Shown: one piece after another, positions 173-8,139 of the stretch
Numbering within the stretch: the first letter of the stretch is position 1
Layout: the number at the start of each line of letters is the position of its first letter
NCBI GenBank assembly: GCA_016866215.1
Contig: VGNE01000031.1
Coordinates: forward strand, 1-42,935
Origin: Chloroflexota bacterium
GTDB lineage: Bacteria > Chloroflexota > Anaerolineae > Anaerolineales > Villigracilaceae
DNA: 42,935 bases
Direction of reading: 5' to 3'
Notes under the pieces: model-generated
What the model was told of the DNA's origin: nothing
What the model saw: the letters and a program-made list of their open reading frames with translations, nothing else
Database searches by the model: none
Made by a program: the position numbers and the translations under genes

Positions 173-245
173 AGCCCTCAACGAGACTTGAACTCGTGAC
201 CTCACCCTTACCAAGGGTGTGCTCTACCAACTGAGCTATGAGGGC
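173..245 (-). tRNA. tRNA-Thr (anticodon GGT)
   Basis: A 73-nt cloverleaf on the minus strand. The acceptor stem GCCCTCA pairs with TGAGGGC, the D arm reads AGCTCAGTTGGTAGAGC, and the anticodon loop TTGGTAA presents GGT (threonine, ACC/ACU codons). The T arm contains GTTCAAGTC. The discriminator is T and no CCA is encoded. It lies 46 bp upstream of tuf. Confidence 0.96.
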
Positions 246-273
246 TTAACGTGCTGTTTCCCAAAGCAGGGAG

Positions 274-356
274 TGGGCAGTGAAGGATTCGAACCTCCGA
301 AGTCTTCTGACAACTGATTTACAGTCAGTCCCCTTTGGCCGCTTGGGTAACTGCCC
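274..356 (-). tRNA. tRNA-Tyr (anticodon GTA)
   Basis: An 83-nt class II tRNA with the long variable arm expected for bacterial tRNA-Tyr. The acceptor stem GGGCAGT pairs with ACTGCCC and the discriminator is A. The anticodon loop CTGTAAA gives GTA. The T arm has GGTTCGAATCC. CCA is not encoded. It is the middle member of the tRNA cluster upstream of tuf. Confidence 0.96.
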
Positions 357-409
357 AGGATGAATTAAAGCTGATCACCAACCGATGGTTCTTCAATCAG
401 CGATCACAG

Positions 410-482
410 AGCCGACGACGAGAATCGAACTCGTAACCTCCCGCTTACAAGGCGGGTGCTCTGCCGATTGAGCTACGTCGGC
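410..482 (-). tRNA. tRNA-Thr (anticodon TGT)
   Basis: A 73-nt cloverleaf on the minus strand. The acceptor stem GCCGACG pairs with CGTCGGC, and the anticodon loop CTTGTAA presents TGT (threonine, ACA codon). The T arm has GTTCGATTC. It is the first gene after the promoter at 501-528, so it heads the tRNA-tuf transcript. Confidence 0.96.
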
Positions 483-5557: not shown

Positions 5558-5633
5558 CAGAAAATGTTTGCGTGTCTTTTTTTACCTGCTTATCTGTTTC
5601 CGTGTCTACCTTTTTCAAGGTAAAATTACTTTT

Positions 5634-6146
5634 ATGTTCAAGCGCAACACAAGCCCCACTGAATCAACATCCCAACCCGTGCAAGCAGTGGAACGTATCA
5701 CCTCCGTGCTCGGCTCTGGCGTGGTTTGGCATGGAAACATCAACGGCTCGGGCGGCATCCGCATTGAAGGCGCATTCGAAGGCGAGATCTCCCTGCGCGG
5801 CATGTTAGTCGTCAGCGAGACGGGGCGCGTCACCTGTCAAAATGTACGCGCCAACGCCGTCATCGTCGCAGGCGCGGTACGCGGCAACATCACCACCCAA
5901 AAACTGGAAATCCGCGCCTCCGGGCGGGTCTGGGGAGATGTAGTCACAACCGCATTTGTGACCGAAGAGGGCGCTTTTCTGCGAGGCCAAATTCGAATGG
6001 AAGAAACGGTCGAGCTTGAACTTGAGCCTGCTCCCGAGTCCACGCCTTCGGAGACTGCCCAGGCAGAGTTCATTGCACAACTCCCTGAACCTGTCAATAA
6101 AGTGCCTCAAAAAATAATGGGGAAGAAGAAAGCCGTAAAAAGTTAA
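5634..6146 (+). CDS. Bactofilin family protein
   Basis: A 170-residue polymer-forming cytoskeletal protein. The bactofilin domain occupies residues ~20-125, with the right-handed beta-helix repeat pattern visible as GGIRIEGAFEGEI, RVTCQNVRANAVIVAGAVRGN and RASGRVWGDV. The N-terminal ~20 and the acidic Pro/Glu-rich C-terminal ~45 residues are disordered tails, as is usual. A longer frame beginning in the octamer array was rejected. TAAAAT (5621-5626) lies 7 bp before this ATG and there is no Shine-Dalgarno, so a leaderless message is likely. Bactofilins organise envelope or cell-shape proteins; the partner here is unknown. Confidence 0.92.
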   Translation: MFKRNTSPTESTSQPVQAVERITSVLGSGVVWHGNINGSGGIRIEGAFEGEISLRGMLVVSETGRVTCQNVRANAVIVAGAVRGNITTQKLEIRASGRVWGDVVTTAFVTEEGAFLRGQIRMEETVELELEPAPESTPSETAQAEFIAQLPEPVNKVPQKIMGKKKAVKS

Positions 6147-6151
6147 TAACT

Positions 6152-6189
6152 GAGCCCTAACGGCCATGAAAAACTGTCAGGGTCTTTTT
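6152..6189 (+). terminator. Hairpin and T-tract overlapping the start of the ProRS-like gene
   Basis: GAGCCCTAACGG pairs with CTGTCAGGGTC (one bulge, one mismatch) and is followed by TTTTT. It probably ends the bactofilin transcript. The next gene begins at 6190, immediately after the T-run, and its only possible Shine-Dalgarno (AGGG) is inside the right arm, so the hairpin may also control that gene. Confidence 0.6.
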
Positions 6190-7419
6190 ATGACCATGAA
6201 ATACACCGAACTCAAAATTCAAACCCAGCGGGAAGTCCCCAACAACGCGCGGACAGAGGGATTCGCATTCCTCGTTCGTGCAGGATATTTGACTCGTGAA
6301 AATGAACTCCTGCCGCTGGGAGAGCAGGCGGTTGCAAGGCTAAAAAATCTATCAACCAATCCTTCCTTCTTCTCACTTCTGTCCCTGCCTTTACTAACCA
6401 ACGACCACGAAACCTACTTTCCACTTTCCACTGGAAATACCGAAATCATCCATTGCGAATCTTGCAAATATACCGAACGCCTCGAACTGGCGCAATTCAA
6501 AAAGACAGCCATTCCCCATGAGGAACTACTTCCGCTCGAAAAAGTATTGACGCCCGACTGTCACACCATCGAAGCGCTGGCGAATTTTTTGAACATCCCT
6601 AAAGAGAAGACCGCCAAGGCGTTGATGTACACTCGCATCGCAGACAATAAATTCGTCTTCGTCGTCCTGCGCGGTGACATGACCCTGAGCGAAGCAAAAC
6701 TTAAGAACATTATTGGCGAAGTCCGCATGGCAACAGCGGAGGAAATCACAAACGCAGGCGCAGCAGCGGGATTCGCGTCACCTGTTGGATTGAACGCGAA
6801 GCGTGCGCTCATCGTCATGGACGACATCATCCCCCAATCACCAAATCTGGCGGCGGGTGCAAACGAGGACGGTTATCACTTGCTTAACACAAATTGCAGA
6901 CGAGATTATTCTCCCGAAATTGCCGCAGACTTAATCCAAGCCAAAGCGGGTGAACCTTGCATACACTGTGCCAGCCCGCTTGCCACCCTCCCTACGCTCA
7001 ACCTGGCTGCGCGCTCTGAATTTAATTTCGAGAATATCCTGCTCGCCCTCGCAGAGACTCACCACGATGAAAAAGGATTGACCCTCCCAAAATCTGCCGC
7101 GCCCTTCGACGTGTATCTCATGCACATCGCAGGCAAGACGATCAACACATTTGAAAAAGCCGATGAGATTTACAACGCCTTGCAAAATGAGGGCATTTCC
7201 GTCCTTTTCGATGACCGCGATGAACGCGCGGGTGTCAAATTCAACGATGCGGATCTGATCGGTTGTCCAGTAAGAATTACAGTTGGGGAAAAGAATCTCA
7301 AAGAGGGGAAGATCGAAATCAAAGCAAGAACAGACAAAGCGAATCAACTTGTTCCAATCGAAGATGCAATTCCATTCATAAAAACCAGTATTCTCGCTCC
7401 CAATTTGGGATCAATGTGA
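6190..7419 (+). CDS. Prolyl-tRNA-synthetase-derived protein: editing and anticodon domains without the catalytic core
   Basis: A 409-residue protein; bacterial ProRS of the same type is about 570. Residues 1-53 match the ProRS N-terminus (KIQTQREVP, FLVRAGYL). The class II core that should follow, with motifs 1 and 2, is absent: the sequence jumps to HCESCKYTERLE (88-99), which in ProRS lies just before the editing insertion. Residues ~118-245 form the YbaK/INS editing domain, with the EKTAKAL lysine (K143) and a GxxxP loop (194-198) kept. CESC (89-92) and CIHC (257-260) may bind zinc. The motif 3 region (278-300) lacks the GxGxxR arginine. Residues ~304-380 are an anticodon-binding domain (VLFDDRDERAGVKF). 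It probably cannot make prolyl-tRNA; a tRNA-Pro editing or regulatory role is inferred. Start 6190 or 6196. Confidence 0.85.
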   Translation: MTMKYTELKIQTQREVPNNARTEGFAFLVRAGYLTRENELLPLGEQAVARLKNLSTNPSFFSLLSLPLLTNDHETYFPLSTGNTEIIHCESCKYTERLELAQFKKTAIPHEELLPLEKVLTPDCHTIEALANFLNIPKEKTAKALMYTRIADNKFVFVVLRGDMTLSEAKLKNIIGEVRMATAEEITNAGAAAGFASPVGLNAKRALIVMDDIIPQSPNLAAGANEDGYHLLNTNCRRDYSPEIAADLIQAKAGEPCIHCASPLATLPTLNLAARSEFNFENILLALAETHHDEKGLTLPKSAAPFDVYLMHIAGKTINTFEKADEIYNALQNEGISVLFDDRDERAGVKFNDADLIGCPVRITVGEKNLKEGKIEIKARTDKANQLVPIEDAIPFIKTSILAPNLGSM

Positions 7420-7431: not shown

Positions 7432-7725
7432 ATGCGCATTATCTCCCGAAAGATATTACGCGAATTCTGGGAAAAACATCCAGACTCTCGCCAGCAATTA
7501 CAAGCCTGGTATATAGATGTTAAACATGCGAATTGGACAAGCCCAACAGATATAAAAGAAATCTATCCTCATGCCAGTATTCTAGTGGATAATCGAGTCG
7601 TATTTAATATTAAAGGAAATAAGTATCGTATGATCGTGATAATTCAATACCGTTTTGGACAAGTTTATATTCATTTTGTTGGTACGCATCAGGAATATGA
7701 TCGTATCCATGCCAAAACGGTTTAG
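7432..7725 (+). CDS. higB: HigB-type toxin (RelE-fold mRNA interferase)
   Basis: A 97-residue toxin of the HigB group, beginning MRIISRKILREFWEKHPDSR and containing the conserved ADIK-like SPTDIKEIYPHASIL and RVVFNIKGNKYRMIV segments; it ends VGTHQEYDRI. HigB toxins bind the ribosome and cleave mRNA during translation. The antitoxin follows after 9 bp, so the pair is complete and in toxin-first order. The start is set by the extended -10 at 7417-7425, with no Shine-Dalgarno. Confidence 0.93.
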   Translation: MRIISRKILREFWEKHPDSRQQLQAWYIDVKHANWTSPTDIKEIYPHASILVDNRVVFNIKGNKYRMIVIIQYRFGQVYIHFVGTHQEYDRIHAKTV

Positions 7726-7734
7726 GAGAATAGG

Positions 7735-8139
7735 ATGAACATCAAACCTATTAAAACAAATTCAGATTATGAGACTGCGCTAAAGGAAATCGAACGGTTA
7801 TTCGACGCAGAGCCCGGCACACCTGATGGTGATCGTCTTGAAGTTCTATCTACATTAGTTGAAGCCTACGAAGACGAACACTATTCCATCCCCCTGCCTG
7901 ATCCCATAGAAATGATTCTTTACACGATGGACAGCCGAGGTTTGACCCGCGCTGATCTTGAACCATATATTGGAAGCCGCGCACGTGTTTCAGAAATTCT
8001 CAACCGCAAACGCCTTCTTTCACTTTCCATGATTCAACGTCTGAATACAGGGCTGGGTATTCCAGCAGAATCATTGATAGCATCGTATAAAATTTCAACT
8101 TCAAAAACACCTCGCAGCCGACCCCGGATTATTGCTTAA
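7735..8139 (+). CDS. higA: HigA-type antitoxin, HTH (XRE) protein
   Basis: A 134-residue antitoxin. Residues ~1-55 are an acidic, Glu-rich toxin-binding region (LFDAEPGTPDGDRLEVL), and ~60-118 hold a helix-turn-helix of the XRE/HigA type (LTRADLEPYIGSRARVSEILNRKR). AGGAG lies 7 bp before the ATG. It neutralises HigB and, by family analogy, represses the shared promoter. The basic tail (residues 119-134) may add DNA contact. Confidence 0.92.
   Translation: MNIKPIKTNSDYETALKEIERLFDAEPGTPDGDRLEVLSTLVEAYEDEHYSIPLPDPIEMILYTMDSRGLTRADLEPYIGSRARVSEILNRKRLLSLSMIQRLNTGLGIPAESLIASYKISTSKTPRSRPRIIA

Follow-up and report, generated by a model that had tools for sequence, protein, structure and literature searches.

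A core-less relative of prolyl-tRNA synthetase as a probable stand-alone editing factor in Anaerolineales

The window analyzed here is a 42,935-nucleotide stretch of DNA from a Chloroflexota bacterium (Anaerolineales, Villigracilaceae; assembly GCA_016866215.1, contig VGNE01000031.1), and one of its open reading frames (6166..7419, forward strand; 417 amino acids from the first ATG) encodes a relative of the bacterial P-type prolyl-tRNA synthetase (ProRS) for which we coined the name ProRS-ed. The protein has kept the editing domain INS and the anticodon-binding domain (ABD) and lacks the class II motifs of the aminoacylation core, and the same genome encodes a complete ProRS of the archaeal/eukaryotic type (TIGR00408) that has no INS. 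On the basis of sequence and genome content, ProRS-ed probably is a P-type ProRS minus its aminoacylation core that serves the INS-less ProRS as a stand-alone editing factor. A sequence-only reading of the window had already proposed trans-editing or tRNA-Pro sensing. The former is strengthened by the kept residues, the association with TIGR00408, and the literature on the Escherichia coli INS, whereas we found no support for sensing beyond the presence of a tRNA-binding domain.

Anatomy, predicted structure and conservation of ProRS-ed

Residue numbers are those of the 417-residue frame throughout, unless a 407-residue numbering is stated, and all parts of the gene lie on the forward strand. 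The gene had initially been read as a single open frame from 6190. The single frame is correct, but 6190 is the second in-frame ATG of a frame that starts at 6166, and as homologues begin approximately at M-K-Y-x-x-L in the alignment, 6196 is the likeliest start codon. From there, the N-terminal ~50 residues of a ProRS (residues 11–60; 6196..6345) are fused to the segment that precedes INS, at the position expected for motifs 1 and 2, and the alignment with full-length ProRSs confirmed this previously noticed deletion, with zero aligned residues for both motifs (motif 2 is RPRxGLIRxREF in relatives). The pre-INS segment (6406..6549) contains a first CxxC pair (C97/C100), and INS itself (tRNA_edit; 6550..6894) includes K151, the GxxxP motif at G202–P206, D219, and H238; the lysine and the GxxxP had been numbered K143 and 194–198 before, a shift of eight relative to the 417-residue frame that leaves the features as such unaffected. 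A second CxxC pair (C265/C268; 6958..6969) lies 3′ of INS and is followed by a shortened stretch (6970..7033) where, according to the alignment, full-length relatives carry GIEVGHIFKLGTKYS... and motif 3. The site of motif 3 (GSYGIGxGR in relatives) holds the unrelated letters ARSEFNFEN, and its arginine is indeed gone. The ABD (HGTP_anticodon) occupies residues 316–406 (7111..7383).

Pfam recognized tRNA_edit (PF04073) at residues 129–243 (E 3e-22, 79.4 bits, cut-off 25.5) and HGTP_anticodon (PF03129) at residues 316–406 (E 4.5e-22, 78.4 bits, cut-off 21), and gave no class II synthetase core model in the 417-residue protein at E ≤ 1. As had been supposed, INS and the ABD have been kept together with both CxxC pairs, according to Pfam and the alignment. 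ProRS-ed remains under the cut-offs of both P-type ProRS models (PRK09194.1/NF006625, 250.6 of 558 bits; TIGR00409, 169.6 of 306.7 bits), of the YbaK model (TIGR00011, 16.4 of 153.25 bits), and of the ThrRS-ed model (NF011500, 25.3 of 362 bits, over the ABD only). It shares INS and ABD with functional P-type ProRSs and is devoid of their motifs 1–3, and it shares the INS fold with its catalytic residues and the absence of an aminoacylation core with INS trans-editing proteins, from whose single-domain architecture it departs by its ABD. By sequence, the bacterial ProRSs 5znj and 2j3l are its nearest solved structures. Enterococcus faecalis ProRS 2j3l is also the best solved match to an AlphaFold2 model of ProRS-ed (Foldseek E 6.9e-36), which was generated with 15 sequences and has a mean pLDDT of 84.0 and a pTM of 0.68, with pLDDT values below 50 at residues 345–349 and 403–407 (407-residue numbering). 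The superposition by VIA (Z 27.8, rmsd 3.5) covers 395 residues of the 565-residue chain, and motifs 1–3 are missing, so that the model did not reveal a complete class II core. For the INS part, alignments were also obtained with 1wdv, 2cx5/2z0k, 2dxa, and 1dbu (Z 14.8–17.8), and another synthetase relic, the mitochondrial polymerase accessory subunit PolG2, is among the structural matches (Z 14.8). ThrRS-ed is not among the matches listed in the two structure lists of 50 each, which is no evidence either way.

Matches to ProRS-ed far above the cross-hit level were found in 56 of the 57 genomes of the genus, its own included, the single exception (G049) being 66% complete, and all 37 of these 56 matches that were fetched and aligned are core-less. 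Among 34 other genomes of the family that were searched, 19 have the form of ~400 amino acids, four have a degenerate core (G065, G073, G077, G078), five have forms that are full-length or were so before being cut (G059, G062, G067, G070, G084), and in six nothing beyond cross-hits was found (G057, G071, G081, G086, G089, G090). A protein that is 84% identical to ProRS-ed is encoded at locus L053 in an Anaerolineales metagenome-assembled genome. ProRS-ed is under purifying selection, with dN/dS values of 0.066–0.239 for the 14 closest pairs among 52 sequences. In 52 core-less relatives, R22, P25, R38, A39, and G40 of the N-terminal part are conserved to at least 97%. Of the 76 core-less proteins of the survey described below, 72 were aligned, and all 72 have T129, K151, D219, and H238 of INS, D349, R351, G356, K358, D363, L364, G366, E384, and R388 of the ABD, as well as C97, C100, and C265, while C268 is present in 71. 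We take K151, D219, and H238 to be the counterparts of the E. coli INS catalytic residues K279, D350, and H369, on the basis of the alignment.

A second prolyl-tRNA synthetase and the survey of core loss

The ProRS-ed gene is located on contig C31 of a 3.74-Mb genome that is 97% complete. A search of this genome with the ProRS-ed protein gave two matches, one to its own gene and one to the TIGR00408 enzyme over the ABD, and thus no full-length P-type ProRS. The separate complete proS that the earlier reading had thought worth seeking is the TIGR00408 gene at G000:C48:7165-8580 (572.7 bits, cut-off 437), an assignment confirmed by NCBIfam, and its product reads as one contiguous class II chain without INS. 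Genome content and anatomy together therefore suggest a TIGR00408 enzyme that charges without editing and a ProRS-ed that edits without charging. Among the 30 of 47 tRNA loci that were fetched there are at least two tRNA-Pro genes (UGG, CGG), and both have, in our reading, C1:G72 and A73, the bacterial form; an E-type ProRS that accepts such P-type tRNAs for charging has been described (PMC12152171). PF04073 matches five proteins of the genome, ProRS-ed and four free-standing proteins (frames of 160–182 amino acids), of which the best reaches 134.5 of the 153.25 bits required for the YbaK equivalog, so that none passes the cut-off. Two of the four could be assigned by PDB sequence: one is YbaK-like (2dxa, E 3.4e-21), and the other is close to Thermus thermophilus TTHA1699 (2cx5, E 3.3e-39), which is equated with ProXp-x in a review (PMC11295145). 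ProXp-ala structures were absent from the PDB matches of all four at E ≤ 0.001, a result that is compatible with a need for ProRS-ed and is no proof of it.

Across Chloroflexota, 161 P-type proteins were classified, 76 as core-less and 85 as intact. The order-level survey covered 97 P-type open reading frames, with 58 lacking any residue at motif 2, 11 degenerate cores, 26 intact and two cut proteins; the 58 comprise 56 proteins of family f1 and two of f4 (G093, G131), whose "deleted core" means ~500 amino acids without motif 2 and not ~400. In a phylum-wide sample of 72 more open reading frames, 59 were intact, six were unclear, cut, or not caught by the motif pattern, and seven were clear core losses (three in f16, one each in f17, f22, f33, and f1). 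The 161 exclude the 5′-cut G084 and G147 from the first survey and, from the second, G400, G351, G422, and G410 with small motif changes, the cut G260, and G184, which was missed by the motif pattern and looks intact; G062, whose frame is split with both motifs readable, and the cut G125 were left unclassified. In G073, locus L103 encodes a near full-length P-type ProRS beside a TIGR00408 gene, with an intact motif 3 and an altered motif 2 (HPRNGLLRAREF replacing RPRAGLIRVREF), and this protein has the appearance of a core loss that has only begun.

A TIGR00408 enzyme was found in the genome for 71 of the 76 core-less proteins, including four partial matches (G001, G036, G061, G131), and for 21 of the 85 intact proteins, including one partial match (G120), leaving five and 64, respectively, for which it was not found. 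Fisher's test on these pooled counts (71/5 versus 21/64) gives 2.7e-20, a value that ignores relatedness, so that the counts are descriptive. TIGR00408 is common as such: matches above its cut-off occur in 111 of the 151 relatives and, for the phylum, in 176 of 301 genomes. In 16 genomes a TIGR00408 gene and a P-type proS are no more than ~2 kb apart, with both genes on one contig and in the same orientation (G059, G062, G070, and G073 of f1, and G247, G323, G342, G349, G355, G376, G396, G403, G410, G415, G421, and G281), and the P-type proteins at these sites are mostly intact where fetched.

Trees were calculated on the INS and ABD columns. At order level, all core-less proteins except G073 form one clade (SH-aLRT 91–92), and a single origin of the core-less state was considered on this basis; it was abandoned with the wider tree of 127 rows that includes the phylum, in which the core-less rows are scattered and at least six changes of the core state are required. 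The six places are f4 with f22, f33 (G192), f16 (G179, G380), f17 (G222), G073, and the large group that holds ProRS-ed. A single clade of all f1 proteins was compatible with an AU test (not rejected, p 0.715), so that other histories are still allowed and six is a minimum rather than a count, and mixed support within the wider tree and long branches, above all that of G107, make positions unsure.

Proposed mechanism and rival explanations

We propose that the TIGR00408 enzyme would charge tRNA-Pro and sometimes misload it, that ProRS-ed would then use its ABD to bind the tRNA-Pro, once released, at the anticodon (G35, G36), as for INS within an ordinary ProRS, that the 3′ end would enter the INS pocket, and that a wrong amino acid, most likely alanine, would be hydrolyzed off. 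Once a second ProRS had taken over charging, the core would have been free to decay while editing stayed under selection. The scheme is grounded in anatomy, conservation, and genome content, and from these we infer the binding, the substrate, the hydrolysis, and the need for it. That the ABD was kept would make sense in light of studies on the E. coli ProRS, in which editing dropped 9-fold with G35C and 20-fold with G36C and hardly changed with acceptor-stem variants; by itself, its INS does not select tRNA-Pro and relies on the ABD, which reads G35 and G36, whereas ProXp-ala reads the acceptor stem and YbaK has no tRNA specificity (PMC3973320). An INS freed from its ProRS would, owing to this dependence, need an ABD to spare Ala-tRNA-Ala, and the retained ABD would explain how such destruction is avoided. 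More tentatively, the core may have been stripped repeatedly across Chloroflexota, with at least six changes, after an INS-less ProRS of the archaeal/eukaryotic type had taken over charging, and ProRS-ed would then stand for a new class of multi-domain proofreading enzymes, possibly a dedicated editing subunit of this second ProRS.

Several points speak against a stand-alone editing factor. No TIGR00408 enzyme was found with the core-less proteins of G030 (95% complete), G107 (96%), G034 (85%), G009 (75%), and G043 (67%), three of these five genomes being less than 90% complete. The 21 intact proteins that coexist with TIGR00408 show that a second enzyme does not force core loss, and the ProRS-ed gene is not adjacent to that of its presumed partner (contigs C31 and C48). 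Editing could also be redundant, given the four other free-standing INS relatives in the genome. At K151, D219, and H238 the 85 intact proteins do not differ from the core-less ones, and since both groups conserve the residues of INS and the ABD to the same degree, conservation alone does not demonstrate a trans role. An independent-pairs test, for which the 85 intact rows were used in full and the core-less rows in part (31 of 76, with all five cases without TIGR00408 among the 45 omitted), was non-significant (p 0.5), trait b having the same direction in about 1.5 of five pairs and never the opposite one. A statistical proof that core loss depends on TIGR00408 was given up with this result; the association is strong in counts, and repeated dependent evolution is not proven.

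The retained tRNA-binding domain and the lost synthetase core would also suit a tRNA-Pro-binding regulator or sensor with INS as a mere scaffold, and synthetase-like domains are used in HisZ and Gcn2. We consider a sensor unlikely, as the catalytic lysine, aspartate, and histidine of INS are present in every aligned core-less protein, as Pfam gave no extra effector domain at E ≤ 0.001 and none credible at E ≤ 1, and as the neighbors compared (bactofilin, FabI-like, and PH-domain genes) do not suggest regulation. About equally improbable is an editing subunit that acts only in complex with the TIGR00408 ProRS, which would make the pair a two-subunit synthetase. The association of core loss with TIGR00408 and the close gene pairs in 16 genomes can be read in this way, but the P-type proteins next to TIGR00408 genes are mostly intact where examined, and the two genes discussed here are on different contigs.

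A relic with a substrate other than Ala-tRNA-Pro, such as Ser- or Thr-tRNAs, D-amino acids, or non-protein amino acids, would have precedents in the INS superfamily, whose members ProXp-ST1 and ProXp-ST2 have diverged in substrate (PMC11295145); as the key INS and ABD residues are identical to those of intact ProRSs, we regard this as very unlikely. Split frames or contig breaks do occur in G002, G016, G034, G039, and G064, and yet a pseudogene, frame error, or assembly artifact hardly deserves consideration for ProRS-ed: dozens of relatives share the deletion, the genus-wide matches (56/57) are core-less wherever fetched (37/37), and the dN/dS values are those given above. The stand-alone editing factor is thus the explanation that we prefer.

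Regarding the genomic surroundings, a bactofilin gene (window 5568-6146, forward strand) lies directly upstream of the ProRS-ed gene and adjoins it in all six related loci compared, a PH-domain gene is a neighbor in five and a FabI-like gene in four of the six. Between ProRS-ed and the PH-domain gene, the window has at 7432-8139 (forward strand) a HigB-type toxin gene (PF09907, E 3.9e-32) with a gene for a helix-turn-helix protein behind it. This pair also occurs in L053 and had no match in L015, L007, L076, and L081, which extend to the PH-domain gene. At the left end of the window (173-482, reverse strand) there is a cluster of tRNA-Thr(ggt), tRNA-Tyr(gta), and tRNA-Thr(tgt) genes.

Comparison with known editing systems

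The nearest full-length relatives by sequence and structure are the P-type ProRSs with INS (PRK09194.1/NF006625, TIGR00409), which share the N-terminal ~50 residues, the CxxC pairs, INS, and the ABD with ProRS-ed and differ by possessing motifs 1–3. Genes such as that of ProRS-ed resemble those for proline--tRNA ligases and would encode proteins that cannot charge tRNA, which is a warning for annotation, and the gradation between intact and core-less proteins may indicate what a synthetase can lose once another enzyme charges. YbaK and the ProXp proteins have the same editing domain and edit in trans, as proposed for ProRS-ed, and the INS part of the model aligns with 2cx5, 2dxa, and 1dbu, but ProRS-ed keeps a whole ProRS ABD, whereas ProXp-ala recognizes the acceptor stem (PMC3973320). 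ProXp variants on record include a ProXp-ala fused to ProRS and a plant ProXp-ala that is extended by a C-terminal domain. No description of a ProRS remnant consisting of INS and ABD was found in the open-access literature, a coverage that mostly leaves out subscription journals. If our interpretation is correct, ProRS-ed would be a trans-editing factor with anticodon-derived tRNA specificity, in contrast to the INS-family proteins described so far, which recognize the acceptor stem or need partners, and it would offer a natural minimal editing unit of INS and ABD (~400 residues) for the study of how anticodon recognition is relayed to the editing site, a question described as open in the literature (PMC3973320).

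A synthetase whose editing activity works for a second synthetase is also known from Anabaena, where the zinc-free ThrRS T1 is the product of an intact gene that is inactivated by zinc shortage (PMC4787780), whereas the core of ProRS-ed has been lost genetically. The closest functional parallel, by analogy, is the archaeal Ser-tRNA(Thr) hydrolase ThrRS-ed (NF011500), a truncated synthetase without catalytic site that has editing and anticodon domains and serves a separate synthetase (PMC9976931, PMC11295145, PMC7373986). The earlier statement that free-standing INS-like proteins generally lack an anticodon domain of their own thus needs an exception, as ThrRS-ed has its own ABD. The architecture and the genome content that characterize ThrRS-ed, a synthetase remnant with editing and anticodon domains next to a separate synthetase that lacks editing, are found again with ProRS-ed, with ProRS in place of ThrRS. 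The editing domains are unrelated, being of the D-aminoacyl-tRNA deacylase-like fold in the archaeal ThrRS derivative and of the INS fold in the bacterial ProRS derivative, and ProRS-ed is therefore not a member of the ThrRS-ed family, although it would work like one; if so, it represents the ProRS counterpart of ThrRS-ed.
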